Shown here: one piece after another, positions 1 through 42,294 of the stretch | Position numbering within the stretch: position 1 is the stretch's first letter | Layout of the letters: each line of letters begins with the position of its first letter | NCBI GenBank assembly: GCA_027923505.1 | Contig: BROI01000009.1 | Location: 930,001 to 994,000 of the forward strand | DNA: 64,000 nt | From: Mayamaea pseudoterrestris | Taxonomy: Eukaryota; Bacillariophyta; Bacillariophyceae; Sellaphorales; Sellaphoraceae | Reading direction: 5' to 3' | Position numbers and translations under genes: made by a program | The notes under the pieces: model-generated | What the model saw: the letters and a program-made list of their open reading frames with translations, nothing else | Databases searched by the model: none | Told to the model about the DNA's origin: nothing

Positions 1-1600
1 TGTCAAGGCATCTGCGGGCTGAGACTGGTGACAAGTTGTCACCAAATACATTGCAGTCCCCTGAGACACCAGCCAGGCATACCATCTTGTAGCGCATCCC
101 ATATAATGATGTTGGCACCATTCTGGTGTCATTTGGGTGTATACATGGCCTGCTGTAGGGGCATTTGAATGTCAAGGCATCTGCGGGCTGAGACTGGTGA
201 CAAGTTGTCACCAAATACATTGCCGTCCCCTGAGACAAAAGCCAGGCATACCATCTTGTACCATAGCTTTAATAATGTGTTGGCACCATTCTGGTGTCAT
301 TTGGGTGTATACATGACCTGCTGTAGGCGTGTTTGAATGCCAAGGCATCTGCAGGCTGAGACTGGTGACAAGTTGTCACCAAATACATTGCCGTCCCCTG
401 AGACACCAGCCAGGCATACCATCTTGTAGCGCAGCCTAAATAATGATGTTGGCACCATTCTGGTGTCATTTGGGTGTATACATGGCCTGCTGTAGGGGCA
501 TTTGAATGTCAAGGCATCTGCGGGCTGAGACTGGTGACAAGTTGTCACCAAATACATTGCAGTCCCCTGAGACACCAGCCAGGCATACCATCTTGTAGCG
601 CATCCCATATAATGATGTTGGCACCATTCTGGTGTCATTTGGGTGTATACATGGCCTGCTGTAGGGGCATTTGAATGTCAAGGCATCTGCGGGCTGAGAC
701 TGGTGACAAGTTGTCACCAAATACATTGCAGTCCCCTGAGACACCAGCCAGGCATACCATCTTGTAGCGCATCCCATATAATGATGTTGGCACCATTCTG
801 GTGTCATTTGGGTGTATACATGGCCTGCTGTAGGGGTGTTTGAATGTCAAGGCATCTGCAGGCTGAGACTGGTGACAAGTTGCACCCAAATACATTGCAG
901 TCCCGGAGACACCAGCCAGCCATCTGTCCTAAATAATGATGTTGGTACCATTCTGGTGTCATTTGGGTGTATACATGGCCTGCTGTAGGGGCATTTGAAT
1001 GTCAAGGCATCCAGGCTGAGACTGGTGACAAGTTGTCACCAAATACATTGCAGTCCCCTGAGACACCAGCCAGGCATACCATCTTGTAGCGCATCCCATA
1101 TAATGATGTTGGCACCATTCTGGTGTCATTTGGGTGTATACATGGCCTGCTGTTGGGGTGTTTAAATGTCAAGGCATCTGCCGGCTGAGATTGGTGACAA
1201 GTTGTCACCAGATACATTGCAGTCCCCTGAGACACCAGCCAGGCATAACATTTTGTATCGCAGCCTGAAAAATGATGTTGGCACCATTCTGGTGTTATTT
1301 GGGTGTATACATGGCCTGGGGTGCGTTTTGAATGTCAAGGCATCTGCAGGCTGAGACTGGTGACAAGTTGTCACCAAATACATTGCCGTCCCCTGAGACA
1401 AAAGCCAGGCATACCATCTTGTAGCGCATCCCATATAATGATGTTGGCACCATTCTGGTGTCATTTGGGTGTATACATGGCCTGCTGTAGGGGCATTTGA
1501 ATGTCAAGGCATCGGTGGGCTGAGACTGGTGACAAGTTGTCACCAAATACATTGCAGTCCCCTGAGACACCAGCCAGGCATACTATCCTGTAGCGCATCC
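1..1600. repeat. 169-bp satellite array A (left part cut by window edge)
   Basis: About nine head-to-tail copies of a 169-bp monomer are visible; the period is fixed by the recurring ends of the TGGTGACAA-G-TTGTCACCA dyad. Copies around 880-1010 and 1310-1340 are shortened. Each monomer holds that 9-bp-arm inverted repeat, a second one (CACCA-TTC-TGGTG) and a TGTATACA palindrome. The array ends near 1600 in unrelated sequence. Short open frames across it are by-products: 169 is not a multiple of three, so frames rotate from copy to copy. The same family returns as array B at 18.6-24.5 kb. Confidence 0.95.
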
Positions 1601-1628
1601 AAGCTTTATTCCATGGTGAGACTTTTTC

Positions 1629-1870
1629 ATTGATAGCCGTTGAAAATGAGTTATTGGCACTGTGCTCCAGGAATGTACTATGATAGCCATTGAAAATCAA
1701 AGTTTTCACACTGGTTCAGAGTGTAGCATTGACAGCTATTGAAAATCAAATTGTGTGGCACTGTGCTCCGGAATGTACTTTGATGCCGTTGAAAATCAAA
1801 GTTTTGCACACTGTTTCGTATAGTTGTGTTAAATCAATTTTGCCACTGTTCTCCGTATTTATTACTTCGA
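1629..1870. repeat. Degenerate ~50-bp tandem repeat
   Basis: Four to five imperfect copies of a 49-53-base unit begin with GATAGCC(A/G)TTGAAAATCAAAG or close variants at about 1629, 1682, 1731 and 1782, followed by a CACTGT-type segment. The core TTGAAAATCAAAGTTTT and the following GCAC...CTGTT match the much better preserved 50-bp minisatellite at 35361-35675, so the two loci appear to belong to one family, this one being older or less homogenised. Confidence 0.75.
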
Positions 1871-2722
1871 TTTGGTGAAATCAGTGACATCAATCAAGAC
1901 ACTGTTTGTGCTCAAGTCATTCATTTTTGGCATCGGAATAGATACCATGAAAATCAACATTTTTGCTTGGTTGTTGAAAATCTGGTGTGGCACTTCGTTT
2001 ACTCAGACAAAAGATCGACAACGGGAGCGCAGGGAACAAAACAATCACCAACACGCAATGGCAACATAACAATTCAACCGTCAGCGCAAGCTGAAACAAC
2101 GCGCGACCAACCATATGACGTACAAGGTGATTGCGCGGACGAACTCTGTCTTGTTTTTGATTCTTTGGAGCGTCTCCGAAACACGTGGCGAAAATTACCT
2201 AATAACAACAATCGCAATCAGATGGCGACAGACGCAACAACAACGAGCAGTCAAGCATGAATCAACATACAAGCTGCTTGCCGGACGTTCAGCAATCTGT
2301 CAAATGAGTCGCAGAAAGATGTTGCACTTCTCGAACCACCACCACACGAGAACAATGCGATGCTGACAAAGATCGGACTCCGACTCCAACACGCTCCTCG
2401 ATTTGCTGCGCATTTGAAACTCTTTGTACTGGGCTGAGCGTAAAGTCTTCAGGCGCAATAAAAAAGCATTCCAAGCAAGGGTTTTTTGGTGAGAAACTGT
2501 GGAACGGCCAAATGATGGCAGAAATGCCGACATGACAAGTGCGCTTTTGTAAGCAAAGCAGCGTCAATTTACATGATGGCAAGGAACTTGTGCATGGCTT
2601 GCGGCCAGGTTTGCTCGGCAAGGGGGTGCACCTATTTCAGGTGATACTGGGATGTTTTACGCAACCCTCTGGCGGGGTCTTTTGGCATAATCACTTACGC
2701 AGTTGCAACTTGACGAGGTTGG
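1871..2722. other. Intergenic region without a recognisable gene
   Basis: Only short open frames occur here, none with a recognisable motif or plausible codon pattern. The region separates the degenerate 50-bp repeat from the 3' end of the dymeclin gene. I see no tRNA, rRNA or transposon signature. Confidence 0.6.
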
Positions 2723-10254: not shown

Positions 10255-13050
10255 TGGATGAGACTCTGCGAATCCCATTTAGGGAGGGGTTCCACACCCA
10301 AGATGACAAGCCTTTGAGTCCAAATCAGATTGAAACACAATGCACATTGTATTCCAATATTGGCAGGCCATTCTGGCAGTCTGAAGTGCCACTTGAGGTG
10401 CACTGCTAGCAGATCCAACAAGGTGTTGGATCTGCAAGCTGAGTCTCACCATGGCATACCTGGTGGTGGAGACTGGAATGGGCGCAACTGACCAAATCAT
10501 TGGCTCATCATGACACCAAACATAAATTGGAAAGGATTTCAGGGCTCCAAAGGCAGCGCTGATGATCCCTGTAGCCAAAAAGGGTGCACTGCTGGCACAT
10601 TCAACCATTGGTTGAATGTGCGGAGTCTCATGGCAAAGGGATGGGTTCCACACCCAAGGTGACAAGCCATTGAGTCCACATCAGATTGAACCACAATGCT
10701 CATTGTATTCCAATATTGGCAGGCCATTCTGGCAGTCTGAAGTGCCACTTGAGGTGCACTGCTAGCAAATCCAACAAGTGGTTGGATCTGCAAGCTTAAT
10801 CTCACCATGGCATACATGGTGGTGGAGACTGGAATGGGCACAACTGACCAAATCATTGGCCCATCATGACACCAAACATGAATTGGAAAGGACTTCAGGG
10901 CTCAGAAGGCAGCGCTGATGATTCCTGTAGCCAAAAAGGGTGCAACGCTGGCACATTCAACCATTGGTTGAATGTGTGGAGTCTCATGGCAAAGGAATGG
11001 GTTCCACACCCAAGGTGACAAGCCTTTGAGTCCTAATCAAATGAAAACACAATGCTCATTGTATTCCTTTGTTGGCAGGCCATTCTGGCAGTCTGAAGTG
11101 CCACTTGAGGTGCACTGCTAGCAAATCCAACAAGTTGTTGGATCTGCAAGCTGAGTCTCACCATGGCATACCTGGTGTTGGAGACTGGAATGGGCGCAAC
11201 TGACCAAATCATTGGCCCATCATGACACCAAACATGAATTGGAAAGGATTTCAGGGCTCCAAAGGCAGCGCTGATGATCCCTGTAGCCAAAAAGGGTGCA
11301 CTGCTGGCACATTCAACCATTGGTTGAATGTGCGGAGTCTCATGGCCAAGGGATGGGTTCCACACCCAAGGTGACAAGCCTCTGAGTCCAAATCGGATTG
11401 AAACACAATGCTCATTGTATTCCTTTATTGGCAGGCCATTCTGGCAGTCTGAAGTGCCACTTGAGGTGCACTGCTAGCAGATCCAACAAGTTGTTGAATC
11501 TGCAAGCTGAGACTCACCATGGCGTACATGGTGGTGGAGACTGGAATGGGTGCAACTGACCAAATCATTGGCCCATCATGACCCCAAACATGAATTGGAA
11601 AGGATTTCAGGGCTCAAAAGACAGCGCTGATGATCCCTGTAGCCAAAAAGGGTGCACTGCTGGCACATTCAACCATTGGTTGAATGTGCGGAGTCTCATG
11701 GCCAAGGGATGGGTTCCACACCCAAGGTGACAAGCCTCTGAGTCCAAATCGGATTGAAACACAATGCTCATTGTATTCCTTTATTGGCAGGCCATTCTGG
11801 CAGTCTGAAGTGCCACTTGAGGTGCACTGCTAGCAGATCCAACAAGTTGTTGGATCTGCAAGCTGAGACTCACCATGGCGTACATGGTGGTGGAACGGAA
11901 TGAGTGGCCCTGCCATCATTGGCCCATCATGACCCAAACATGAAAAAGGATTCTGGGCAAAAGGCAGCGCTGATGATCCCTGTAGCCAAAAAGGGTGCAC
12001 CACTGGCACATTCAACCATTGATTGAATGTGCGGAGTCTCATGGCAAAGGGATGGGTTCCACACCCAAGGGGACAAGCCTTTGAGTCCAAAACAGATTGA
12101 AACACAATGCTCATTGTATTCCTTTATTGGCAGGCCATTCTGGCAGTCTATAGTGCCACTTGAGGTGCACTGCTAGCAGATCCAACAAGTTGTTGGATCT
12201 GCAAGCTGAGTCTCACCATGGCATACATGGTGGTGGAGACTGGAATGGGTGCAACTGACTAAATCATTGGCCCATCATGACACCAAACATGAATTGGAAA
12301 GGACTTCAGGGCTCAGAAGGCAGCGCTGATGATTCCTGTAGCCAAAAAAGGGTGCACCACTGGCACATTCAGCCATTGGTTGAATGTGCGGAGTCTCATG
12401 GCCAAGGGATGACTTCCACACCCATGGTGACAAGCCTTTGAGTCCAAATCGGATTGAAACACAATGCTCATTGTATTCCTTTATTGGCAGGCCATTCTGG
12501 CAGTCTGAAGTGCCACTTGAGGTGCACTGCTAGCAGATCCAACAAGTTGTAGGATCTGCTTTGAGTCCAAAACAGATTGAAACACAATGCTCATTGTATT
12601 CCTTTATTGGCAGGCCATTCTGGCAGTCTATAGTGCCACTTGAGGTGCACTGCTAGCAGATCCAACAAGTTGTTGGATCTGCAAGCTGAGTCTCACCATG
12701 GCATACATGGTGGTGGAGACTGGAATGGGTGCAACTGACTAAATCATTGGCCCATCATGACACCAAACATGAATTGGAAAGGACTTCAGGGCTCAGAAGG
12801 CAGCGCTGATGATTCCTGTAGCCAAAAAAGGGTGCACCACTGGCACATTCAGCCATTGGTTGAATGTGCGGAGTCTCATGGCCAAGGGATGACTTCCACA
12901 CCCATGGTGACAAGCCTTTGAGTCCAAATCGGATTGAAACACAATGCTCATTGTATTCCTTTATTGGCAGGCCATTCTGGCAGTCTGAAGTGCCACTTGA
13001 GGTGCACTGCTAGCAGATCCAACAAGTTGTAGGATCTGCTGAGTCTCACT
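10255..13050. repeat. ~356-bp satellite array with strong inverted repeats
   Basis: About eight tandem copies, with landmark spacings of 356, 355, 357, 343 and 358 bases, then 480 across a duplicated block. Every full copy carries GCACATTCAACC-ATT-GGTTGAATGTGC (12-bp arms, 3-base loop; copies near 10598, 10954, 11309, 11666, 12009, 12367 and 12847). It also carries an arm pair GCAGATCCAACAA and TTGTTGGATCTGC around one central base (near 10410, 10768, 11124, 11483, 11838, 12179 and 12659), plus shorter dyads ACAATG-CT-CATTGT and CACCATG-GCATA-CATGGTG. Blocks 12080-12559 and 12560-13039 match base for base as far as I can read. The array sits between the P5A ATPase and a plastid-protein gene. 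It shows no obvious relation to the 169-bp satellite and no coding capacity. Confidence 0.95.
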
Positions 13051-14536: not shown

Positions 14537-17500
14537 TGCGTTGCTGGTGGTGAATGTATTGGTCCTTGCGGAGGTAACTGCTGCTGCTGCTGCTGCCCGC
14601 GATCCATGCCCATGGCATGCTGCGGCATGGGTTGCATTGGTCGCTGCTGCATGGCGTGTCCCAATGGCGGCATCGGCGGTTGCCGCGGATACTGTTGTCC
14701 TCGAATATTCAAATTTTGATGGTTGAGAGGCGCATAAAACTGCTGCATCTGCATGGCTTGTGGTGGCGAATACATCTGCTGGGTGCGACGTGGCGACGAA
14801 CCAGCTATCTGTCGCTGTTGCTGTTGCTGCATCATTTGCTGCAAGGCGAGTTGCCTCTGCTGTTGTGTCATAAAGTTAGGACTGGCCTGGGGGCCTGATT
14901 GTGGTTGTTGTTGTTGTTGCTGCTGTAGCTGCGGTGGCTGTGAAAAAAATGGTTGCTGGTGCATGTTTTGCGTTTGCGACATATTCTGCTTTTGTTGAAC
15001 CGGGAGCTGTCCAACAAATTGGCCATACGGGGACGCTAAAGGTATTTTTCCAGGGGTGGTTGGTGATTGAGCTGGTAATAATCCTTGACTGCTGACAGCA
15101 GATGCAAAGTTAGCATTGAGAACATTCTTAATGTTGCGTGGCGATTCAGATGGAGGTGCGACAGACCGCTGACTGACACCAAGATCTGACGGTCTCAGGT
15201 TTGGAGGAGTGGTTACTTTGGAAGAAGAGTTCCTGCGTCTTGGGATCTTGGAATCAGAGTCTGCCTTCTGCGATGCGGCGACAGTGTGGGCAGCATTCAT
15301 GCTTTGCACTGATGACGTTGACTGCTGTCGAATAGCCGGGGCAGGTTTTACGCTGGCAGGTGGAGGCTCTATGGATGAGCCGGACTTTCGCCTTGCTTGC
15401 GGCTGTCTGGGTTGTGCTTGAGTTGCAGGTGGCTGCTTAGCAGTCGACGGTAGCTTCGTCACAAACGTATAACCGTCGATGAGAGCGTTATCTGGTAAGT
15501 GAAGTGGGTCTTTCGACTGAGATTCTGTATAAACGAAGACACGGACATGTTAGCAAAGTACATGCAGATGAAAGAAAAGATTGGCTCGCATCAACCCACT
15601 TACTGTTCGTCGGGGAACTGGGTACAATCCCTGCTTCTGCTGGACTCGAAGCGACGGCAACGGCTGATAAAGGAGCGGCCAAACATTTGAAGTGTGACGA
15701 ACGGAGAAGAGAAGCGGCTTGACATCCAGGTGCAGAAGCGATCTCTGACAAATTGTCCTCAAGGACCGAGTAGGACGGTCGGCAAGGAAGAATCCGATCA
15801 TGCGAGATGGCAGGCTCCACAGACAAATCCAACAGACAACCTGGCTCTGCCCAGGGTAGATCACCCCGTGCACTAGGGACAGTCGACACGCTGTTTTCGG
15901 CAACAGGATGCGTTGCAAGAAGAAACAATTGCTCCACTTTCACCAACTGGTCTTCGACATTCAAAGGTTTATGGGTTCCACAATTTAGATTTTCTAATGC
16001 ACTGGACCGCAACTCTTTCAAAAACGAGGCGTGAGTAGGTCTTAAAACAATCTGTTGTTTCCGCCGGTGCATCTTATGCCAAAGACTCTTTTTTAGAGCC
16101 GAAGTGAGTCCGGGAAACGACTGCAGCCATGTCATGCTGACATTGCTATTCTTCTTTTCATTTAAAAGCTCGCGTCGGTGGGCTGCAACTTTTTTCAATG
16201 AACCAACAATATCTCTGATACGTGATCCCGAACGCTCAGCCGCAAACGCTTCCATTTGCTTCTGCGTCGCTCGCCCTGAGAGAATGACTTGCCGCTGCTT
16301 GACTGCATTAGTTATCAAAACCACGTTTCGCTGCGCAACTTTTAAAGTCTGTGCGAGTTGCTCTCCTTTCGACTTTGTTTCATTCGCCTTTTGCTTGGCG
16401 AGCATCTCCCTCTCCTCCGCGCGAGCCAGCTTTGACTTAATGTCAGCAACGTGTACCTCCAGCTTTTGTCGGTCGCTAGGATTCGGAGCGATAATCGATC
16501 CATCTAATATGCACGGCGGTGAGAGAAACATAGAGAACAAATTCGAGATTAGAAACATTTATGACGTACCAGGTCCAAAGTACTGCCGAAATTTGTGTAA
16601 AAACTCGTCCTGCGCCCGCTTGTACTTGTCAATATCCTTCCTTGCGGCATCTGCAGCAGTAATATATTCCTTTTCCTCCTGCGTCACAGCAGCAGATTGT
16701 TTCTCGGTTTCTGCCGCCATAGTTATCAGCATGTCGGCTCGCTTTTTGAGCTCCGCCAGATGTTCATGCTCATGTTCACTCATGGAGGTTGCTCTCAATG
16801 TTGCGGCAGACTCCTCGCTCGTTCGTAGATCCACCAAGACGCATCGCACTTGTCCACTCTGCAGTTCAGCCGCTTCCCCAAAGTTAAATTGCTCGAAAGC
16901 AGCGGGGATTTCGCCGCAAGTAACGCTGCAGAGAATATCATGTGCGCGAATCCCCCAAGGAATGAACTGCTCATTGCCCGAGCTGTTCTTCTTGTCGTCA
17001 CTCGTCGACTTGGGATTGATTTCGCCGTGACTGTCTTTGTGCACAATGAGGGAGATCCAGAGTCCTTCGTTATGGATCTCTAGCGACAATTGCCTCGACG
17101 AATGACTCATGACCGTCTTGCGGTGCTTGTGCCTGGCAGCCGCGCCCGACGACTTTTCTCGTGCCCATTTTGGTTTCGAGGTGATTGGCGCAGGCTGTCT
17201 GAGTTCAATCTTGTCCGGCTTGGCAACGGAGCGCGCATCATGGTGAGGATGTTCGGACGACAGCGTCTCCGCTAAGCTGGAAATATTATGATTAATAGTC
17301 GTCTCTGCTCTATCAGCACTGCCAGAACCAATCCCTTCATCCAAGGCTCGAATTTCGGCCACGATTGCTTGCTCTTGCTCCAACAAGTTTTGCAAGTGCC
17401 GCTTGATATAACGTTGTCGTATTTGCTGAAAAGACACAGTCAATTTCTCCGTCATTTTTCGCCGATTCACTTGAATTTGTCCAAGCCGATGATCCAAGTG

Positions 17501-18463
17501 CGCCTTTATTTTTTCCTGCTCGCGCTTGTACTCCGTCGCCATGCGATTTTTCAATTCGTCCGACTTTTGCGCAAATTCTGCTACCTGGCGCTGATGCTTA
17601 ATTTGAATCTGCTGAGCAATGTTGTGCCACTCTTGTTGCCCGGCGGCTGCGAACTGTTGTTGTTCATTTGGATTGATACTACTGCTTCGTTGCTGTTGAT
17701 GCTGCTGATGCGCCTGCATGGCGTTTTGTAGCTCGGCGGCGTGACGGTTCCGTAACAGCTTCATGCTTTGATTGATCTTTTGCAGATTGTGTGATGACTT
17801 TTCCGTGAATACTTCATAGAGTTTCTGCGAGTCCTTCTTTTCGTCCTGCGACGCTCGGAGCTTGTACTTTTCCAGCGAGAGTTCTGCGTTGGCGAGCTTG
17901 GCTTGCAGCTGATCGTTAATAAACTTGTCAATCTCTTGACGAGCGACTGTATCCTGCGTCTTGAGTGAAGCAAGCTTTTCCTGTAGAGCTTGTCGACGCG
18001 CCAGTTGTTCCAATCGTTGAAAGGCAGGGTCTTGGTCCTCGTGCGTTTCGGCAAAGAATGCAAGCGTATCTTCAAGTTCATCCGACGGAATCAGCGCCGT
18101 TTCATCTATATAAGTCGACTGCGTAGCTTGTTTGTTGACATTATCAACAAATGCACGCGCTGATGATTGAGATTTATCCGAATTTGAGATCGGTAATGAA
18201 GCTGATTGGATCGTCAATTCATCGGCACCAGTGAATGCATCCGTATCTAGTCCATGGCTCGCAGACGAGCCACTTGCTATGGCTGCTTTCGAAATGATAT
18301 TAATTTTGATCTTCTTCCCGGCTCCTATCGCAGGCACGTTTCTTGCCTTTCGCTTCATGGGATGGATGGGAAACGGAGAATCGTCGTCCTCATCGTCATC
18401 GTATTCATCGTCACTTTGATTCTCAGGATGCGCCGAGTCGGCTTTAATCGAAACAAGAGACAT
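14329..18463 (-). CDS. Large coiled-coil protein with polyQ C-terminus, unknown function
   Basis: Three exons read cleanly: 18463-16570, 16503-15604 and 15524-14329, with introns CCTG|GTACGT...ATTAG|AT and ACA|GTAAGT...ATACAG|AA, giving 1329 residues. The N-terminus is acidic, then has a basic nuclear-signal-like patch (MKRKARN and later GKKIKI). Long charged helices likely to form coiled coil cover roughly residues 125-400. A compact segment around 450-570 (starting near LSLEIHNEGLWISLIV) looks like a folded domain I cannot name, and a second helical, Lys/Glu-rich part follows in exon 2. The last ~350 residues are low complexity: Gln runs, Pro, Met and Ser. The architecture suggests a nuclear or RNA-associated scaffold, but this is inference. 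The start codon lies about 140 bases from satellite array B. Confidence 0.85.
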
Positions 18464-18604
18464 ATCAGATGATGAGATAAAGTATAAAATGTCTGTATAA
18501 ATAGTATGGATGAACGTCGGCGCTCAAACCCCTTGTCCCATGGTGCTGGTGGACGATGATCGCGCAGATCCTCCGAGTACCAATAAGACCTGCATAACCG
18601 CTAC

Positions 18605-21600
18605 GATGCAGTTGCTGGCTGAGACTGGTGACAACTTGTCACCAGTCACATTGCAGTCTACTGAGACACCAGCCAGGCATGTCATCTTGTAGCGCAGCCT
18701 GAATAATGATGTTGGCACCATTATGGTGTATTTTGGGCACCTACAGGGCTTGCTGTAGGGGCGTTAAAATGTCATGGCATCTGCGGGCTGAGACTGGTGA
18801 CAAGTTGTCACCAAATACATTGCCATCCCCTGAGACACCAGCCAAGCCTACCATCTTGTAGCGAACCGGAATAATGATGTTGATACCATTCTGGTGTGAT
18901 TTGGGCACCTACAAGGCTTGCTGTAGGGGCGTTTGAATGTCATGGCATCTGCGGGCTGAGACTGGTGACAAGTTGTCACCAAATACATTGCCATCCCCTG
19001 AGACACCAGCCAAGCCTACCATCTTGTAGCGCAGCCTGAATAATGACGTTGGCACCATTCTGGTGTATTTTGGGCACCTACACGGCTTGCTGTAGGGGCC
19101 TTTGAATGTCATGGCATCTGCGGGCTGAGACTGGTGACAAGTTGTCACCAAATACATTGCCATCCCCTGAGACACCAGCCAAGCCTACCATCTTGTAGCG
19201 CAGCCTGAATAATGACGTTGGCACCACTCTGGTGTATTTTGGGCACCTACAGGGCTTGCTGTAGGGGCGTTTGAATGTCACGGCATCTGCGGGCTGAGAC
19301 TGGTGACAAGTTGTCACCAAATATATTGCCATCCCCTGAGACACCAGCCAAGCCTACCACCTTGTAGCGCAGTCTAAAAAATGACGTTGGCACCACTCTG
19401 GTGTATTTTGGGCACCTACACGGCTTGCTGTAGGGGCCTTTGAATGTCACGGCATCTGCGGGCTGAGACTGGTGACAAGTTGTCACCAAATATATTGCCA
19501 TCCCCTGAGACACCAGCCAAGCCTACCACCTTGTAGCGCAGTCTAAAAAATGACGTTGGCACCACTCTGGTGTATTTTGGGCACCTACACGGCTTGCTGT
19601 AGGGGCCTTTGAATGTCACGGCATCTGCGGGCTGAGACTGGTGACAAGTTGTCACCAAATACATTGCCATCCCCAGAGACACCAGCCAAGCCTACCATCT
19701 TGTAGCGCAGCCTGAATAATGATGTTGGCACCATTCTGGTGTATTTTGGGCACCTAGAGGGCTTGCTGTAGGGGCGTTTGAATGTCATGGCATCTGCGGG
19801 CTGAGACTGGTGACAAGTTGTCACCAAATACATTGCCATCCCCTGAGACACCAGCCAAGCCTACCATCTTGTAGCGCAGCCTGAATAATGATGTTGGCAC
19901 CATTCTGGTGTATTTTGGGCACCTACAGGGCTTGCTGTAGGGGCGTTTGAATGTCATGGCATCTGCGGGCTGAGACTGGTGACAAGTTGTCACCAAATAC
20001 ATTGCCATCCCCTGAGACACCAGCCAAGCCTACCATCTTGTAGCGCAGTCTGAATAATGATGTTGGCACCATTCTGGTGTATTTTGGGCACCTACAGGGC
20101 TTGCTGTAGGGGCGTTTGAATGTCACGGCATCTGCGGGCTGAGACTGGTGACAAGTTGTCACCAAATACATTGCCATCCCCAGAGACACCAGCCAAGCCT
20201 ACCATCTTGTAGCACAGCCTGAATAATGATGTTGGCACCACTCTGGTGTATTTTGGGCACCTACAGGGCTTGCTGTAGGGGCATTTGAATGTCACGGCAT
20301 CTGCGGGCTGAGACTGGTGACAAGTTGTCACCAAATACATTGCCATCCCCTGAGACACCAGCCAAGCCTATTATCTTGTAGCGCAGCCTGAATAATGATG
20401 TTGGCACCATTCTGGTGTATTTTTGGCACCTACAGGGCTTGCTGTAGGGGCGTTTGAATGTCACAGCATCTGCGGGCTGACACTGGTGACAATTTGTCAC
20501 CAAATACATTGCCATCCCCTGAGACACCAGCCAAGCCTACCATCTTGTAGATCAGCCTAAATAATGATGTTGGGACCATTCTGGTGTATTTTGGGCACCT
20601 ACAGGGCTTGCTGTAGGGGCGTTTGAATGTCACAGCATCTGCGGGCTGAGACTGGTGACAAGTTGTCACCAAATACATTGCCATCCCCTGAGACACCAGC
20701 CAAGCCTACTATCTTGTAGCGCAGCCTGAATAATGATGTTGGCACCATTCTGGTGTATTTTGGGCACCTACAGGGCTTGCTGTAGGGGCGTTTGAATGTC
20801 ACGGCATCTGCGGGCTGAGACTGGTGACAAGTTGTCACCAAATACATTGCCATCCCCTGAGACACCAGCCAAGCCTACCATCTTGTAGCGCAGCCTGAAT
20901 AATGATGTTGGGACCATTCTGGTGTATTTTGGGCACCTACAGGGCTTGCTGTAGGGGCGTTTGCATGTCACGGCATCTGCGGGCTGAGACTGGTGACAAG
21001 TTGTCACCAAATACATTGCCATCCCCTGAGACACCAGCCAAGCCTACCATCTTGTAGCGCAGCCTGAATAATGATGTTGGCACCATTCAGGTGGATTTTT
21101 GGCACCTACAGGGCTTGCTGTAGGGGCGTTTGAATGTCATGGCATCTGCGGGTTGAGACTGGTGACAAGTTGTCACCAAATACATTGCCATCCCCTGAGA
21201 CACCAGCCAAGCCTACCATCTTGTAGAGCAGCCTGAATAATGACGTTGGGACCATTCTGGTGTATTTTGGGCACCTACAGGGCTTGCTGTAGGGGCGTTT
21301 GAATGTCACGGCATCTGCGGGCTGAGACTGGTGACAAGTTGTCACCAAATACATTGCCATCCCCTGAGACACCAGCCAAGCCTACCATCTTGTTGCGCAG
21401 TCTAAATAATGACGTTGGCACCACTCTGGTGTATTTTGGGCAACTACAGGGCTTGCTGTAGGGGCGTTTGAATGTCACGGCATCTGCGGGCTAAAACTGG
21501 CGACAAGTTGTCACCAAATACATTGCCATCCCCAGAGACACCAGCCAAGCCTACCATCTTGTAGCGCAGCCTGAATAATGATGTTGGCACCATTCTGGTG

Positions 21601-24475
21601 TATTTTGGGCACCTACAGGGCTTGCTGTAGGGGCGTTTGAAAGTCACAGCATCTGCGGGCTGAGACTGGTGACAAGTTGTCACCAAATACATTGCCATCC
21701 CCTGAGACACCAGCCAAGCCTACCATCTTGTTGCGCAGTCTAAATAATGACGTTGGCACCACTCTGGTGTATTTTGGGCAACTACAGGGCTTGCTGTAGG
21801 GGCGTTTGAATGTCACAGCATCTGCGGGCTAAAACTGGCGACAAGTTGTCACCAAATACATTGCCATCCCCAGAGACACCAGCCAAGCCTACCATCTTGT
21901 AGCGCAGCCTGAATAATGATGTTGGCACCATTCTGGTGTATTTTGGGCACCTACAGGGCTTGCTGTAGGGGCGTTTGAAAGTCACAGCATCTGCGGGCTG
22001 AGACTGGTGACAAGTTGTCACCAAATACATTGCCATCCCCTGAGACACCAGCCAAGCCTACCATCTTGTAGCGCAGTCTGAATAATGATGTTGGCACCAT
22101 TCTGGTGTATTTTGGGCACCTACAGGGCTTGCTGTAGGGGCGTTTGAATGTCACGGCATCTGCGGGCTGAGACTGGTGACAAGTTGTCACCAAATACATT
22201 GCCATCCCCTGAGACACCAGCCAAGCCTATTATCTTGTAGCGCAGCCTATATAATGATGTTGGGACCATTCTGGTGTATTTTGGGCACCTACAGGGCTTG
22301 CTGTAGGGGCGTTTGCATGTCACGGCATCTGCGGGCTGAGACTGGTGACAAGTTGTCACCAAATACATTGCCATCCCCAGAGACACCAGCCAAGCCTACC
22401 ATCTTGTAGCACAGCCTGAATAATGATGTTGGCACCACTCTGGTGTATTTTGGGCACCTACAGGGCTTGCTGTAGGGGCATTTGAATGTCACGGCATCTG
22501 CGGGACCGAGACTGGTGACAAGTTGTCACCAAATACATTGCCATCCCCTGAGACACCAGCCAGGCATGCCATCTTGTAGCGCAGCCTGAATAATGATGTT
22601 GGCACCATTCTGGTGTATTTTGGGCACCTACAGGGCTTGCTGTAGGGGCGTTTGAATTTCACAGCATCTGCGGGCTGACACTGGTGACAAGTTGTCACCA
22701 AATACATTGCCATCCCCTGAGACACCAGCCAAGCATGCCATCTTGTAGCGCAGCCTGCTTAATGATGTTGGCACCATTCTGGTGTATTTTGGGCACCTAC
22801 ACGGCTTGCTGTAGGGGCCTTTGAATGTCACGGCATCTGCGGGCTGAGACTGGTGACAAGTTGTCACCAAATACATTGCCATCCCCTGAGACACCAGGCA
22901 AGCCTACCATCTTGTAGCGCAGCCTGAATAATGATGTTGGGACCATTCTGGTGTATTTTGGGCACCTACAGGGCTTGCTGTAGGGGCGTTTGCATGTCAC
23001 GGCATCTGCGGGCTGAGACTGGTGACAAGTTGTCACCAAATACATTACAGTCAGCTGAGACACCAGCCAAGCCTATTATCTTGTAGCGCAGCCTATATAA
23101 TGATGTTGGGACCATTCTGGTGTATTTTGGGCACCTACAGGGCTTGCTGTAGGGGCGTTTGCATGTCACGGCATCTGCGGGCTGAGACTGGTGACAAGTT
23201 GTCACCAAATACATTGCCATCCCCAGAGACACCAGCCAAGCCTACCATCTTGTAGCACAGCCTGAATAATGATGTTGGCACCACTCTGGTGTATTTTGGG
23301 CACCTACAGGGCTTGCTGTAGGGGCATTTGAATGTCACGGCATCTGCGGGACCGAGACTGGTGACAAGTTGTCACCAAATACATTGCCATCCCCTGAGAC
23401 ACCAGCCAAGCCTAATATCTTGTAGCGCAGCCTGAATAATGATGTTGGCACCATTCTGGTGTATTTTGGGCACCTACAGGGCTTGCTGTAGGGGCGTTTG
23501 AATTTCACAGCATCTGCGGGCTGACACTGGTGACAAGTTGTCACCAAATACATTGCCATCCCCTGAGACACCAGCCAAGCATGCCATCTTGTAGCGCAGC
23601 CTGCTTAATGATGTTGGCACCATTCTGGTGTATTTTGGGCACCTACACGGCTTGCTGTAGGGGCCTTTGAATGTCACGGCATCTGCGGGCTGAGACTGGT
23701 GACAAGTTGTCACCAAATACATTGCCATCCCCTGAGACACCAGGCAAGCCTACCATCTTGTAGCGCAGCCTGAATAATGATGTTGGGACCATTCTGGTGT
23801 ATTTTGGGCACCTACAGGGCTTGCTGTAGGGGCGTTTGAATGTCACGGCATCTGCGGGCTGAGACTGGTGACAAGTTGTCACCAAATACATTGCCATCCC
23901 CTGAGACACCAGCCAAGCCTATTATCTTGTAGCGCAGCCTATATAATGATGTTGGGACCATTCTGGTGTATTTTGGGCACCTACAGGGCTTGCTGTAGGG
24001 GCGTTTGCATGTCACGGCATCTGCGGGCTGAGACTGGTGACAAGTTGTCACCAAATACATTACAGTCAGCTGAGACACCAGCCTGGCATGCCGTCTTGTA
24101 GCGCAGACGGAATAATGATGTTGGCACCTTTCTGGTCTGATTTGGGCATATACAGGGCATGTTATAGGGGCAATTGAATGACACGGCATCTGCTGGCTGA
24201 GACTGGTGACAACTTGTCACCAATCACATTGCAGTCTACTGAGACACCAGCCAGGCATGCCATCTTGTAGCGCAGTCTGAATAATGATGTTGGCACCATT
24301 CTGGTGTAATTTGAATGTATGCAGGGCATGTTATAGGGGCAATTGAATGTCATGGCATCTGCGGGCTGAGACTGGTGACAAGTTGTCACCAAATACATTG
24401 CCATCCCCTGAGACACCAGCCAAGCCTACCATCTTGTAGCGCAGCTTGAATAATGTTGTTGGCACCATCATGTTG
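18605..24475. repeat. 169-bp satellite array B, ~35 copies
   Basis: About 35 head-to-tail monomers with an exact 169-base spacing over most of the array. Each has three inverted repeats: TGGTGACAA-G-TTGTCACCA, CACCA-(T/C)TC-TGGTG and CCTACAG-GGCTTG-CTGTAGG. Higher-order structure is present: a two-monomer (338-base) repeat around 21275-22050, and an ~846-base five-monomer block seen near 22120, again near 22966 and partly near 23812. First and last monomers (around 18620 and 24200) share variants absent from the centre (CAACTTGTCACCA...ATTGCAGTCTACTGAGAC). The array fills almost all of the 6.2 kb between the coiled-coil gene and the SKI3-like gene, which point away from each other. It is the same family as array A. 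Confidence 0.97.
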
Positions 24476-24667
24476 TCTACTGGTTGTGGACATGGCTCTG
24501 AGAATGGGCTGTGGAAAGGCATGGGCTGGGGATCCAAATGATTACCGATGCGACGTATCTGCTCATTCGAGACCAATCGCAAAACCACCATGAAGATTGG
24601 CATTCTCACAGCCATTTCATTACCTTGCGCAACACTTAAGAGAGACGAATGAGAATAGTTTTAAGCA

Positions 24668-27600
24668 ATGACTACGAATGTCTCTGCAGCGAAATGGAAA
24701 GTCTTCTTGTCGTCCATTAAAGACTCACTTCTCGATCAGCGTGGTGATGACAATGCCGATGCGTCCACCAACGGCATTGATTCTCCAACGACACTTCTGC
24801 AATATCAAGCGCTCCTGTGCTTGGAATGCGCGCAACGAGGCGTACTAGTGAATTACAGCGACAGTCCTTCTGCCATTTTGGAAGTTATTCGTGGAACGGC
24901 TGGCAAGCCATTGATGGATGCAAATGATGCGGCATTTGCAACGAGTTGCTTGCCAACGCCTTTGCTTTCGGGCATGTCGGTACTGCAGGGACGACTGGCC
25001 GAGTCTATAGCAAACGCAAGCATGACTCAAGAATTTCACTTAACGAAAACATTTGATACTAAAACGCTCCAGTCCGTTTTGCGGCGCTGTCAAGAGGTTA
25101 AGGATGCTCGCTTGGAGTGTCTCGTGCAACTGCTGCTGCTGCTTGTTGCGACTATTAACAATGATTCAAGCACATCAGCGCCGCAAATGGAACAACAACA
25201 AGCGAGTTTACTACGCATTCTTGCCGAAGGTTGCTACTATCGAGCGACGCACTTCACGCCGGATGCTCCGCCAATATGGAAGCGCATTGTTGACTTGCAC
25301 ATTGGATCATCGTGTCAGTCACACGACAATTGGAGAGCCGTCGTGGCCTTGGAACACTTGCAACTAATTGCAATTAACAAATCTAACCATAAGCGAGCAC
25401 TGGAACTAGGATTGACTCTGGCGGAATGCGTCATGAGTGTGGCAGATGACAAGGACGAGGGCAGCAGCAACGTGAACGACTCGGCGTCGCCCTTGACAAA
25501 ATTCTACTTGCAAACTTTAATCCATCCGCATCGACCAATCGAGCCGTATTCGCTATTGGAGGCGACGCAAAAGGCAATTCATTATTTAAAGTCAAATTAC
25601 GATGCGGCGAAGGACGACGATGACAATGGCAGTGCAATCGACAATCTACGTCGGCGACTCTTGGCGTTGCGCATATCGCTGGTCCGAGAGCAAGCACTCG
25701 TTGAACAAGTAGCTGAGACGGACTATACTGCAGCCAGGAATCGTTCCATGGTGGCTGTCAGTAAAAGGGATATCACTGTCAAGGCTCGACATAAACACTT
25801 GGTGGCAGCAGCGATGGAGAATGAGGCGGAGGAAGACGCAACAATTCACGAGCAAGCGACAAACCTTTGGATCACGCTACTTGCTGCGGATCAAGGCAAG
25901 TCAAACGATGAGGATGGTGGTCAAACGAATCATGATACGAGCAGCGTCACAGCAACTCTCCGCATCAAGCAAGCCAACGTTGCTTTGCAAACGTACTTAA
26001 CGCGCCAACAAGATCAGGCAAAAGCGCTGGCCAACTCAAAGCAATCGTTAGCGACAAAGAATGTACTGGTTGACGTATGGCGGCGTTTGCAAGAATATTG
26101 TCTTCTGATTTTGAATCATGTATTGGATGAAACACAAGAGTCCGCGATTGAACCAATAAGTCGATTAAACTATGACACTGATGCACTGGTTCTGGGTCGA
26201 CTGGCGTCATGGCTAGAGACGTCGGAACATTACCAGTTGGTGCAGCACGCTGTTTGTAGTCTGTTTTTTACGGAGTGGATGCTGTCGGGTGTTGATCCAT
26301 CGTCAACCCTGATTTCGCTGCCTCTGCTGCATCTCGCGCAGGATGTGATGCAATCCATGCTATCAAGCGAGCAAAATGCAAAAACTGCAACGAGTAGTAT
26401 CCAAGGAAACCTCGTTGAGAGTGGCAAACATTCAAGCAGCACTTTGTCAAGACTTGAGTGTGCCTTCCGATCCGCGCGAGCTTGGCTGTATCTGTCATCC
26501 GCCATTGACACCACGTCGGCAATACTGGAACGAAACATTGTCGCGGTTGCAACGAAAAATCTAGATGACGTAGCAGTTTTTGCTGATGCCATCTACGAGT
26601 TTGGGATGTCGTATCTGGAATTTTTGGTGTGCTGGTCGGGATTGTTTAAGGAAGCTTGGACGTTTTGTATTATGGCTGAAGCACGCAGCATTTTGCTGAA
26701 AGCAAGTACTTGCGTCAATTCGTCTGTCAAAGACTATGGCCGACCTCTGTCACTTGATGAAAGAGCCATTCTCGACATTGCCTCGGCGGATGCTGAGCTT
26801 GACAGTGGTGGTTTGATGGACGAAGCAAAGATGCAGTACAAAAAGTTTAGCGATCTTGGTACAACTGAATCGAACTCGGCCTTGTCGCACTTGATTATGA
26901 GCAAATGTATTTTTGCCCTTTGCGGCCTATCGCTACGCGCTAACCAAAATAGAGGCGACTTCGAAGCCACTATTCGTTCGCGATTGGCGGCGTTGGAGCA
27001 GATGCAACTGGAAGATGGGCATGGCCCGTTCTTCATGTGGAGAAGATCAGACGCCACCTCCCTTTCGCTTCAGTATCATCTCGCCGCCGGTCGGCAGCTT
27101 CTCGCCGATGTCTTGTTGCGGAGCGAGCGCGCGCTTGAAGCGCAATCGTTTTTGGAGCAAGCCGCTACTGATTCACCGAGTGACCCTGGAGCACTTCAAT
27201 CTCTCGGAACCTTCCATTTACGAATGTTGTTTTTTGCTAACGAAGGCGACAGTGTCGGACGCAGTAAACTTGCTCAAGCGTTTCTATTGAGGGCGGCGAA
27301 AGCTGATCCAACAAGAGCGTCACCGTTCGCCCTCCTTGGTTACTGGTACGAGCATACAAACGACATTGCTAGAGCCACCGGGTGTTACTCGAAAGCTCTT
27401 ATGATGGATCCATCGCATCCTGTGGCGGGGCGTGGACTTATTCGCTTGAAGGGGTTAGAAGGGCTCCATACTATCATTGAAAAAGCAACTGCGGAAACAG
27501 CATCTCTCAATGGGTGGGCTTGGTTTGCACTTGGCGTTCTCAAGATGAAATTGGAAGGAAACGATGACCTCGCCATTGTTTCCTTTGTTGCTGCTCTTCG

Positions 27601-29479
27601 TTGTCGCGATATAATGCGCCCTTGGTCTGACAACCTATCTTATTTCTATTCCGATCCGCAACACGCATGTCCCCCCAGTGTGACGGAGATGGTAGCTGCA
27701 TGCACCGAATTGGCAGGATGCTACCGTCGCGCCGGTAGGTACACAGCTTCCGCTCGTTGCTACGATACGGCAATCGATGCGGCTGGAAGTTCCGTGTCCA
27801 ATTCTATACTGTGTTGTTGCGCCCAAGGTATGTTGTAGTAAAGAATGGATTGCTTGCACTTATGAACTTTTGGACTAATTCATTTTTATTTTGAAGTTCA
27901 ATATGAGCTAGGTTTATTTGAAGAAGCTTCAGAGAACTTTATTAGCGCGGTGCAAAGTGAGGAGCATGCGACGAAAACAATGGCTTTATACGGACTGGGC
28001 TTGACGCTACTGGCCATTGCCAAAAGACATTTCGAAGATGGCAAAGCCGGAGCGGCTTTTGACGTTATCCGTAATGGTATTGACTACTGTAATCTGTCTG
28101 GCGACGAAGCAGCCTGCGTACTGAAACTAAATGGGGATTTGCACACCTTTGCCACCAATCTTCCGCCTGATTTATTTTCGACCGACGGTTCCGACGAAGA
28201 TCAGGCACTGGCCAACCAAGTGTTATTCGTGAGGGAAGGCATTGATTATTTTCGCAGGGCTGACATTATTATCGTACAGCGAAGCATAGCTGACGAAAAT
28301 ATAAATGCTTTACGTGCTTCTCTCGCATCAGACATTGGCAGCACCTTTCTTTCATTGGGACAACTCCTTGCCCATGCTGAAGGAAAAGGTCTGGGTCTTG
28401 TGTCTACGAGTTCTATTGATTTCTTTCTGCAAGCTAAGGAGGCATTCATTTTAGCTTTAAGATTGTTCCCAGAGTATTCGCCGGCGTGGTGTGGGCTCGG
28501 CTGTTCGGTTAGCACGACAGATGCCCTCATGGCTCAACATGCGTTTAGCAGATCGATTGAGCTCGAAAGTCTGTCGCCCGACGCGTATTCGAACTTGTCA
28601 TTCTTATATACAAGCAACAATGCAGTGGGCGCAAGTCGACAGATGAGTGATGCAGTCACCAAGATTGGCGACACTCCCTTCATGTGGATTAATCGAGCAT
28701 TGTTGGCAGAGCGGGACGCAAGGAGCGACATTAGCGTCGACAAGGATGCGATGCTTGTGCAAGCGGCGGACGCGTATCGTGCGGCATTACAAGTGTCAAC
28801 GACATTGGAAGCCAAGGAAGGACTCGCCATGACATGTCGAGTTAGCAATGATACTTGGCAGATGCAAAACCAAATGTCTCATCTTTTGGCGGAATACATC
28901 GGGTCAGCTGGAACATCAAATGTACCAGCTCAATTATTTCTTGGACTGACCGAGATCGAAACCGGGCTGCAAGGGTCCAACCATTCAAACAATCAACAAT
29001 TTGTTGAAGAAATAAGAAAAGTCATGAACTATTCCGACTCTGCAACACAAACGCTTCAAGCCATCGATGTCCAAACGATTGCTGCTGTACTGAAGGAACA
29101 CACTGCTGTCGCTTGCGTAGTTTCAAGTGACGCGCCCACAGTTGACATCGCTCGTAAGGTTTTTTATGAACCGGATCGAGGGGAACTATGGTTGGCATTG
29201 GGAAAGAGCATGTTACACCAGGACGACGATTCACCACATCAACTCCACAGCGCTTGGAGAGCACTCTGTAAAGGGCGTCGCATTCTCACAGAGTCTGTTG
29301 TATTTAGAGAAGCGAAAGCGGAAGACTTGTCTGACGCGCTTGCGCTTGAATACTGGATAGGTCAGGTGACAAGCATGCCTTGCGCACGATCCGTAGATGC
29401 TCACTTGCAGAAATCTTTGTTACTGAATCCAGGAAACAGTTTCGCTCGTGATATATTTCGAGAATCAAAATTGCGTTAA
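24668..29479 (+). CDS. SKI3: SKI3/TTC37-like TPR protein of the Ski complex
   Basis: Ski3 (TTC37) is the TPR scaffold of the cytoplasmic Ski complex, which feeds mRNA to the exosome for 3'-5' decay. Exon 1 is 24668-27827 and exon 2 is 27897-29479, joined by a 69-base intron (GCCCAAG|GTATGT...TTTTGAAG|TTCAA), giving 1580 residues, about the size of human TTC37 (1564). Most of the protein is alpha-helical. The clearest TPR-type segment is near residue 880 (SPFALLGYWYEHTNDIARA...YSKALMMDPSHPVAGRGLIR); related helices continue into exon 2 (FPEYSPAWCGLGCS...HAFSRSIELE). The length and the position of this TPR block support Ski3 over a generic TPR protein, but SKI2 and SKI8 partners are not in the window. 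The start ATG lies about 190 bases from the end of satellite array B. Confidence 0.8.
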
Positions 29480-35122: not shown

Positions 35123-35360
35123 TGTGCAGCAATGGCGGGAATAGTGAATTGTCAAGTTGATCAAATTGAACTCCTTCGTAGAAAGACTTTACAATAGTAT
35201 AGCCAAGTAATACTATTACAGCAGTGCAACAACTCCCTTGTCACGTGTCGAAAATGGAACATCACAAGCAACAACATCAACATGCGGTCCTCGCGCAACC
35301 GAATGACGATCGTTCGTGTACCGCTAGGTCTTCATGTCACGCTTTTTAGTCACGCATTCG

Positions 35361-35675
35361 AGCCACAGTCATCGTCCGTTGAAAATCAAAGTTTTTGGCA
35401 CTACTGTTTGAGACAGTCATCATCCGTTGAAAATCAAAGTTTTTGGCACTACTGTTAGAGACACAGTCAACGTACGTTGAAAATCAAAGTTTTTGCCACA
35501 ACTGTTTGAGCCCCAGTCATCGTCCGTTGAAAATCAAAGTTTTTGGCACTACAGTTCGAGCCACAGTTATGGTCCGTTGAAAATCAAAGTTTTTGGCACT
35601 ACTGTTCGAGCCACAGTCATCGTCCGTTGAAAATCAAAGTTTTTGGCACTACTGTTTGAGCCACAGTGGTTTCTT
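35361..35675. repeat. 50-bp minisatellite, six copies
   Basis: The core GTTGAAAATCAAAGTTTTT recurs with GAAAATC at 35381, 35429, 35479, 35529, 35579 and 35629, spacings of 48 then 50 bases. The remainder of the unit reads GGCACTACTGTT-(T/C)GAGCCACAGTCATCGTCC. Small dyads are present (TTGA-AAA-TCAA; ACTGT-TTGAGCC-ACAGT). It lies about 240 bases upstream of the CDC48 start codon, so it may sit in that gene's promoter region. Confidence 0.93.
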
Positions 35676-36091: not shown

Positions 36092-39000
36092 TCGTTCCCC
36101 TCTTCTTACCAAGTTAGCAGACTGATCATCTTCTACTTGACCAAGTACTCAAGGTAACTCGACACAAGTTGCATTGATAGGTTATTCGCTCAAAGCAAGA
36201 AGGATGTCGCCAATTGGCGCCCGATGGACCACGAGAACAGCTCGATGGCGATCGAGTTCGTGTTGAATCACTTGAGCACGGCGATCCAACAGATTGTCGA
36301 GCCTCGCCGAAAGGAAGATGATACCTTCGCCATCTTCTTTATGCGCATCGCTCAAGCTAACGCTGACCTTTCATACGAAGCTGCCGACAAGATGAAGGCA
36401 GAGCTCCGTGCTTACAAATTGACCGACGTTTCCTTCCAAGACGTTCACCATTTTGGTGCCAAGTTCCTCAACACTGAGCGCCAGCTTCACAATGGCAAGC
36501 GCTGGGACCATTCCCTTGGATTAATCTTCATTAGAGAGCTTTCCACGTGTCCTTCGGAGGTGATGCGCGTTACGTTCATTGGCATTGGAGAACGGTACGA
36601 CACTGCCCTTCGTGAAATCAATCCCCTCTCCTACGACGAGCAGCGCACCCGCATGTTCAGTTTAAACGTTCATATCTCCCAGTTGGTTGAACGCGCTGAT
36701 GATCTTTACGCTCAAATCAAAGCAGTTGATGGAGGATGGCCTCCGCTTGTCAATATCGTCGACAAGAAAGCGCCCGATATCAACTCGTTGACGAAACTCA
36801 GTCACGCCGAGCAAGCTGCTCTCATCTCAAGCGGCCAAGTGGATATCAACAACCTCGTTCAATCCAAGGTCAAAGAGCTCCGCACAAAGGACAAGAAGCA
36901 GTTGGAGGCTTACAAGAAGCGATTCGCCAAGCAGTCGCCAACTGGCGACACCAAGGCTCCAAACACGACTCCTTCTGGCGATTCCACCAAGACCGCCGAA
37001 AAGCGAGCTGAACGCCCTTTACCAGCATGGCGCACAAAGCCGCCGGCTGCCAACAATAAAGATGAAGTCAAGGAGGTTGGCAAGTACAAGTTCCAGTGGT
37101 GCGACAAGTGCTCCAAGTGGGTGTGGAATCATACGTCTGCAACTCACAAATCCAAGTCGCCCGAGGCAAACAACTTCATCCTTGCCGACTCCGCCAACGT
37201 GTTTGAAGAATTCACCGACTACGCTCCCTTCGCTGACAGTCAGGAATGACTTGAATGCGGAAGGACGCCGCCTCTTCTTCTCTTTGTTCAAGCGTTTTGT
37301 TTCAAGACTGCCTTCGCCCGGTTCATCCTCAAGCCCGTCGCCGCCATGCTCCTCTTGGCTGCATTGAGTATGCTTCCTACCGTCCTACCAGCCGTTCTTG
37401 AATCATTTTGCGCCTGCGCAACGAGTGGACTTGCGCTCAATCAATGGTTCTGGTCTACGACTCTCGCCAACGCCTCTACGTTTGCCTGCACGGCGCTCCG
37501 CTTTTCGCGCGCTCCGCTCGCTCTTCCAACGTTTCTTCGCTGGTTTTGGTTTGAGTTACTCACGACTACGCTCGAGAGGGAGATGATGTTGCTGTGGATG
37601 ACAGTTATCCTCGAAGCATTAGCTCTTTCCTATCACCTTTCTCCGAGTCGCCCGCAACCAACTAGAGACAAGCTCCGTCAAAAACAAAAACACTACGACA
37701 AACGCAAGAACTCTACTGACGAACGTCAACTTTCCGTCCAATCAAAACGCCGCATTCGCCAACAGAAACGATTGAAAAGAACGCTCCGTGTCCCACTCAT
37801 CTATAGCTATCACCGTTCCTATCCAACAAGATTGCGCAGCGACGGCGTCTATCGTCAAAGAGTCCATTGCCCTCGTTTCGAGACCCTTCCAGATGCCAAG
37901 ACTGTTCCCATTGAAGTCATTAAAGGGTACAATGGCTTGTTTACGACCCTCGTCGAGTCCAAGGCATGCCGATGGATCGACAATCCCATCTCCCAATTTA
38001 ATTCCCTCGTCGAGTACCCCAGCCTCATGGATTACCTTGGCGCGCTCGCTCCACTCGAGTTCAACAACGTTACTTTCCAAGCAGACTCTACAGTCAATGA
38101 CTTTGCCTTCTCTCCAAGCAATGCTGCTCGATCCTCCACGTTCGAAATCATTCACGACAGCGGCGCTTCTGCAACCGTCGCCAATCACTTGGATGACTTC
38201 GTCCCTGGTACTTACCGCAAGAGCACAAAGAAGATCATTGCTAAAGGCCTCGCATCTGGATTGCAAGTAGTCGGCCATGGCATAATTGACTGGACCCTTG
38301 ATGGCAACGATGGCAAGCCTCTACGAGTCCGTTGTCAAGCTCTCTACATACCCGACAGTCCGCGCAAGTTACTGTGTCCCCAACAGTACACTCGATATCA
38401 CAAGCTACACGATCGCGAGGCGAATTTAACGTTTGCTATTAATGGAGAAGGATTCTGGTACTTTGATCTACACAAACAAGGACGCCCGTCCCTTCTTCAC
38501 GGCTCGCTCGATCCAGTCACCAACCTACCGACTTCTACAGCCATTGCAACTCAAGATAGTCCTGAAACCCTTCATGCTGAGTTTAATGCATGTGTAACAG
38601 ACGCTCGAAACGCCAACTTGTCGCCCGCGCAAAAGCTTCTTCTTCAATGGCATTTCAAGTGCGGCCACGCCAGCTTCCGCAGCATTCAAAACCTTCTACG
38701 CTCTGGTCGCCTCGCTACAAGCGATGAGATGCGCAAGCTCCATAAAGCAGCAGCCTCCTGTGAGATCCCGCGGTGCGCTGCTTGCGAGTTTGGCAAGGCG
38801 AAACGCCGACCCGCGCCCGGAACGAGTCGTCAACCAACGCCTCGAGCCGATGGATCGCTCAAGCAAGGAAAGCTTCGACCAGGACAACAAGTCTCCGTTG
38901 ATCATTACATCTGCAGTCAAAAGGGACGCCTCTATACATCTCGCGGCAAAACGTCGACCGACTCAATGTTCAGCGGTGGCGCGCTCTTTGTCGACCACGC

Positions 39001-42000: not shown

Positions 42001-42294
42001 ACAATTAAGGTTCAGGCCCTGCCAGTGTCCGTTTGTTTCGGTTGATCCTCATGGCTGGATATCTGTTAATATCCAGTATCTGTGAATACTCACGTTACTT
42101 AAGCTACAGAAGCAAGCCGACGTTACCAACACGTCGGCAACGGTCCCCTTAAAGTAGCGGTAACAACTAAATCAAATCATTCTATTGCAAAGTACACGCA
42201 ATCGTCTCGTTCCCCTCTTCTTACCAAGTTAGCAGACTGATCATCTTCTACTTGACCAAGTACTCAAGGTAACTCGACACAAGTTGCATTGATA
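36092..42294 (+). mobile_element. Ty1/copia LTR retrotransposon, CoDi-like, looks largely whole
   Basis: The element carries two long open frames in copia order. The first (36224-37249, 341 residues) is gag-like with a late CDKC...H...H zinc-binding pattern. The second (37346-41935, 1529 residues) is pol: aspartic protease (DSGASATV), a pre-integrase zinc region, integrase core, reverse transcriptase with YVDD, and a copia-type RNase H. Protease-integrase-RT-RNase H is the diagnostic copia order. An 88-base direct repeat is shared by the two ends (36092-36179 and 42207-42294) with no difference I can see, suggesting a young insertion. On the right the repeat is preceded by a purine-rich tract near 41985 and by what looks like the rest of an LTR; on the left that upstream part is not recognisable, so the ends are asymmetric. 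Confidence 0.93.

Follow-up and report, generated by a model that had tools for sequence, protein, structure and literature searches.

A dispersed 169-bp satellite whose monomer carries one constrained palindromic box

A satellite with a 169-bp monomer is dispersed through a 30.6-Mb assembly, and within this monomer the arms of one 19-bp palindrome, TGGTGACAA-G-TTGTCACCA (IR1), change far less than the other positions in the 16 arrays compared. On balance, and with little confidence to spare, we regard IR1 as a sequence box kept for a putative DNA-binding protein, and not as the stem of a hairpin or the relic of a foldback element. Satellites in which a single box is conserved are already familiar. 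Then what is gained from another one? The constraint on IR1 is sharp enough to define a 19-bp bait for fishing out the protein, and the per-position test sorts eye-catching hairpins into one constrained site and two apparently incidental ones.

The window is the whole stretch of DNA that was analysed, 64,000 nucleotides in length. The features used below are as follows.

18605..24475, plus strand: array of the 169-bp satellite, 35 monomers in a single orientation, located by repeat finding (profile span 18608-24524)
16559-18523, minus strand: ORF left of the array, first ATG near 18463 as counted from the translation
24665-27838, plus strand: ORF right of the array, ATG at 24668
1..1597, plus strand: second array of the same satellite, of another subfamily in which an arm of the third inverted repeat (IR3) is lost; it extends leftwards past the window edge
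18626..18644, no strand assigned: the first IR1 met in the array, TGGTGACAA-C-TTGTCACCA; the 33 exact copies mostly lie 169 bp apart
19053..19065, no strand assigned: example of the second inverted repeat (IR2), CACCA-TTC-TGGTG, exact at 23 places in the array
19246..19265, no strand assigned: example of IR3, CCTACAG-GGCTTG-CTGTAGG, exact at 23 places and lost in the other subfamily

The original prediction of a tandem array of about 35 copies with a 169-bp unit was borne out. Tandem Repeats Finder gives one array at 18613-24468, with period 169, 34.6 copies and 94% matches, and 35 monomers could be excised from 18605..24475. The array sits between two divergent ORFs, on the minus strand to its left and on the plus strand to its right. 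Next to the window on its left, the 10-kb segment L011 (C9:920001-930000) consists of satellite from roughly base 19 onwards and holds 58 core motifs at no more than 2 mismatches. An Rfam search of the window gave no match; the protein domains detected are copia-type RVT_2, 7tm_3 and helicase-associated domains, a set that hints at a diatom-like stramenopile.

How unusual are three inverted repeats in one monomer? They had been said to occur in nearly all copies, which is right for IR1 (33 exact occurrences in 18605-24475, and 35 with up to 2 substitutions) but not for IR2 and IR3, each exact in 23 copies, about two thirds; where one strand of the array had been credited with about 100 hairpins, the count is 79 perfect inverted repeats. 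As a chance baseline, 1,000 dinucleotide-preserving shuffles of the consensus monomer were made. With arms of at least 5 bp and a loop of at most 20, the consensus monomer holds 3 inverted repeats while the shuffles hold 3.6 on average. A repeat with arms of at least 7 bp appears in 227 of the 1,000 shuffles, and one with arms of at least 9 bp in 15. Three hairpins per monomer are ordinary, and IR1 alone is individually unusual.

One explanation for the repeats is that structure is selected: strands or transcripts would fold into hairpins, or supercoiled DNA would extrude cruciforms, and the inverted repeats would be preserved for that. We hold this to be unlikely. The stems of IR1 and IR3 are present in the centroid fold of the window subfamily, and that of IR1 in the fold of L011, and short dyad symmetries are described as common in centromeres in a review (PMC8997354); but the DNA folding energy is ordinary, with z of -1.14 for the window subfamily (26 of 200 shuffles equal or better) and -1.19 for a stretch of the L011 array (28 of 200). 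Moreover, the arms of IR2 and IR3 vary like the rest of the monomer, and IR3 is lost in one subfamily.

Variation of the arms was measured on monomers from 16 arrays aligned to a profile, which gave 333 matches. Those exceeding 15 gaps, 42 in number, were set aside, leaving 291. Changes were scored against each array's own consensus, and the rest of the monomer, as used here, includes IR2 and IR3. Seven arrays (W1, W2, L011, L019, L021, L029 and L032, with 129 monomers) were chosen without the motif, and nine (L009, L033-L035 and L047-L051) came from pattern matches. In the 291 monomers, 31 of 5,234 IR1 arm cells are changed (0.59%) versus 1,865 of 43,072 in the rest (4.3%). The seven motif-independent arrays give 14/2,321 (0.6%) versus 671/18,980 (3.5%). 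In every one of the 15 arrays that supplied 6 or more monomers, IR1 arms lie below the rest (sign test 3e-5), and so they do in 6 of 6 motif-independent arrays. When the arrays are pooled, IR1 is the least variable among the 169 circular 19-mers; when each array is taken singly, IR1 leads the 169 windows in 7 of the 15, and in the remaining 8 its rank is between 4 and 30. Its flanks are moderately constrained, at 2.0% for positions 88-96 and 1.5% for positions 116-124, which makes the constrained block extend beyond the palindrome. The lower ranks and the constraint on the flanks both count against IR1 as a protein box.

The same is not seen at the other two repeats. Arm changes number 92/2,910 in IR2 and 151/4,071 in IR3 over the 16 arrays, neither rate being distinguishable from that of the rest (one-sided p 0.50 for IR2, 0.83 for IR3), and 30/1,290 and 45/1,806 in the motif-independent arrays. 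Thus the expectation that arm positions vary less than others holds for IR1 and fails for IR2 and IR3. Among the array consensuses, 7 of 14 IR3 arm bases differ. IR2 and IR3 are probably incidental, although none of the 10 IR2 arm bases differs among the consensuses (p 0.06), which leans against IR2 as purely incidental.

Could the low variation of IR1 arise without any reader, simply because plain satellite turnover homogenises the copies or because the site mutates little? Recent exchange is visible in the window array, where 3 of 29 monomer pairs at lag 5 are identical, and IR1 contains no CpG. However, the deficit persists when CpG sites are left out, the rest then changing at 1,417 of 39,005 cells (3.6%) in the 16 arrays and at 467 of 17,179 in the motif-independent ones (p 2e-4). 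It is also present in every base class, as well as in all 15 arrays mentioned above. Further, there is no fixed arm difference between arrays: none of the 18 IR1 arm positions differs among the 16 consensuses, whereas, with the centre excluded, 44 of the 150 positions elsewhere do (Fisher p 0.004). Turnover by itself therefore seems to us an improbable account of IR1. Still, recombinational homogenisation also keeps copies alike, and this counts against the reading of IR1 as a protein box.

Is it the structure or the sequence of IR1 that is kept? If stems were maintained, a change in one arm should be answered in the other, and such co-variation had been put forward as a check of the original prediction. 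All 31 changed IR1 arm cells are one-sided, with 24 broken pairs and 7 G-T pairs, so that compensation is 0/31 in the 16 arrays, a result of modest power because changes are few. In IR2, 2 of 90 changed cells were altered on both sides and 89 of 90 are not Watson-Crick, leaving at most 1 compensated. Co-variation of arms is hence none in IR1 and at most 1/90 in IR2, which speaks against selected structure. What had been suggested was selection on structure or a foldback origin; the part that finds support is selection, on one sequence box, while hairpins and foldback are not supported.

The centre of IR1 points the same way. Substitutions had been noticed often in loops or centres, and this is weakly true, but the IR1 centre is itself conserved, though less than the arms. 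It is changed in 14 of 291 pooled monomers, a figure inflated because five arrays (L033, L035, L049, L050 and L051) had been selected through A-centred copies; leaving these five out gives 4/218, and the motif-independent arrays give 3/129. Genome-wide, 99 exact-arm sites with the GAC prefix have a centre other than G (A 36, T 13, C 50), some 1.4% of the exact-arm GAC sites, whose total is put at roughly 7,100 (7,614 x 246/263). The 4/218 in the reduced set and the roughly 1.4% non-G genome-wide speak against a free central base. The rate of change rises from 0.5% in the outer arms to 1.0% in the inner four arm bases (12/1,164) and about 1.4-2.3% at the centre. Inner arm bases and centre that are somewhat more variable than the outer arms could also be expected of a hairpin stem whose loop tolerates change, but the would-be loop bases are still constrained, which is more easily understood if a protein reads the whole box than if a hairpin forms. 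Note that the symmetry of IR1 is imperfect, with G much commoner than C at the centre, a point against the protein-box reading. Among the first 212 monomers, 12 of 12 C-centred copies share one flank type. Two further C-centred copies (L048 and L049) carry the common flank, and therefore more than one G to C change of the centre took place. From the flip of G to C as a possible hairpin-mediated inversion we draw no conclusion.

Over its whole length, the assembly holds 7,614 exact IR1 sites. IR1 with its three-base prefix, at no more than 3 mismatches, gives 8,573 and 8,612 matches on the two strands. Since exact cores match both strands and changed cores practically one only, the total is estimated by arithmetic at about 9,570 sites, which would cover roughly 1.6 Mb, or 5% of all assembled sequence. 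The best 18-base control from elsewhere in the monomer has 5,626 exact copies, and as a one-sided motif it is balanced between strands (2,781 vs 2,845), the arrays lying in both orientations. Exact IR3 is found 3,977 times, and the variant of the subfamily that has lost IR3 has 1,417 exact copies. These repeat counts are lower bounds. When the matches listed are merged by hand, the satellite occupies upwards of 60 places separated by over 20 kb, and at least 31 of the 41 contigs have it, so the arrays are dispersed and do not form a single block per contig; some of these places are represented by a single copy. With its monomer repeated head to tail at many loci, this is a dispersed satellite DNA. 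On contig C1, exact IR1 sites among the matches listed begin at 609,837.

Such a distribution, at many separate places and in both orientations, resembles that of mobile DNA, and it might be asked whether the monomer was derived from a foldback or MITE-type element with terminal inverted repeats. This origin is barely credible. The inverted repeats are internal to a head-to-tail monomer, not terminal, and measure 13-20 bp in all. The observed array ends are spread over the monomer, and the long flanks shared between loci consist only of an LTR element (L021, L032) and 93 bp over which L019 matches L009. Three 5' ends do lie at monomer positions 79-83, but the others are scattered and no common end point is claimed. 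As for the surroundings of the arrays, those of L021 and L032, at contig starts, abut the LTR element, and those of L029 and L050 adjoin other tandem repeats.

Then why would one box be kept while the monomer around it diverges? Under the protein-box reading, a homodimeric or two-fold-symmetric host protein would read TGGTGACAA-G-TTGTCACCA as double-stranded sequence. Once bound, it would package, position or propagate the arrays, so that copies with a broken box would be removed or be unable to spread. The protein, the symmetry of its binding and its role for the arrays are what we infer from the constraint. IR1 might work like a CENP-B box, with the likeness lying in the conservation pattern of one conserved box amid a diverging monomer, and membership in the CENP-B-box class is not claimed. 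A genome search for DDE_1 of the CENP-B/pogo family gave no match, with the search controls silent too. Conserved satellite boxes other than the CENP-B box are described as mostly without a known reader (PMC3694981).

This analogy leads to the centromere. The dispersal of the arrays and their dyad symmetries are reminiscent of repeat-based holocentromeres, and a centromere function is possible. In a more specific scenario, this small protist-like genome would use the arrays as units of a poly- or holocentromere, or as some other platform that organises chromosomes; each monomer would wrap about one nucleosome and offer one palindromic box to a lineage-specific CENP-B analogue. We regard this as a long shot. 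The uneven spacing of the arrays argues against a strict holocentric pattern. In the diatom P. tricornutum, centromeres are reported as short simple AT-rich sequences (PMC7082073).

A literature search that included both half-sites found no paper on this 169-bp satellite within the literature covered, but several known systems are comparable. Human alpha satellite and Meloidogyne satellites, as described in PMC3694981, likewise have a short conserved block, a diverging rest and tandem arrays with variants. Compared with such CENP-B-box satellites, the block here is a 19-bp palindrome and the arrays are dispersed, and the likeness is one of conservation pattern. Many separate arrays along chromosomes are reported likewise for Tyba in Rhynchospora (PMC10048060), Lusy1/Lusy2 in Luzula (PMC11538461) and Chio1/Chio2 in Chionographis (PMC10264360). 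The Lusy2 monomer of 174-175 bp (PMC11538461) is similar in size to the 169 bp found here, and the Chio monomers are described with three or four dyad symmetries and with forward and reverse arrays (PMC10264360), as here. Unlike in these holocentromere satellites as described, the genome here is compact and protist-like and the spacing uneven. Among stramenopile satellites, PpSat1 and PpSat2 of the oomycete Phytophthora parasitica (PMC7290008) were likewise proposed to be under selection for secondary structure. PpSat1 monomers are given there as 290-338 bp and PpSat2 as a 426-member family of 142 bp, compared with 169 bp here. The structure proposed in that report was argued from folding energies and from base composition; for the present satellite the arm test favours sequence. 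Euchromatic satellites of Drosophila and the Pacific oyster (PMC10048060) likewise form separate arrays outside large heterochromatic blocks on many chromosomes; compared with what is described of them, the present arrays show one constrained palindromic box per monomer.

Outside the arrays, the palindrome is not enriched in the 266 kb searched, with 6 matches at up to 5 mismatches versus 2-19 in 30 permuted controls, a further point against the protein-box reading. The exact palindrome is also found in 10 IMG/VR contigs, with one site each, and the GAC-prefixed palindrome in 1 bacterial contig of genome_contigs, both of which are taken as chance. The 9-bp half-sites occur 11 times outside the arrays versus about 2 expected under equal base use; their contexts are mixed, and two of them lie in a 356-bp satellite.

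Identical monomers in the 35-monomer satellite array of the window occur at one spacing only: among lags of 1-12 monomers, such pairs were found at lag 5 (3 of 29). Judged visually, the stretch 22174-23866 holds two near-identical copies of a roughly five-monomer block (~846 bp). Outside the window, the 169-bp satellite at L033, a locus of the same assembly (array 804-3339), switches orientation near 3120-3124, and at another locus, L029 (C18:1-10000), it runs over 3499-4196 and is flanked on both sides by other tandem repeat families, two in number.

The window also holds the following repeats.

1630-1814, 50-bp tandem repeat, immediately adjoining the first 169-bp array
10281-12559, 356-bp tandem repeat, 6.4 copies
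12079-13040, exact 480-bp duplication, after the 356-bp tandem repeat
35360-35667, 50-bp tandem repeat, a little ahead of the retroelement
36092-42294, copia-type retroelement, from its RVT_2 domain

The retroelement is bounded by 88-bp direct repeats, one on each side and 6,115 bp apart, and their identity suggests that it is a recent insertion. The units of the two 50-bp repeats look alike, though the loci lie far apart. The unit of the 356-bp repeat contains GGTGACAAG, a near-match to the half-site of IR1, the 19-bp palindrome of the satellite monomer.
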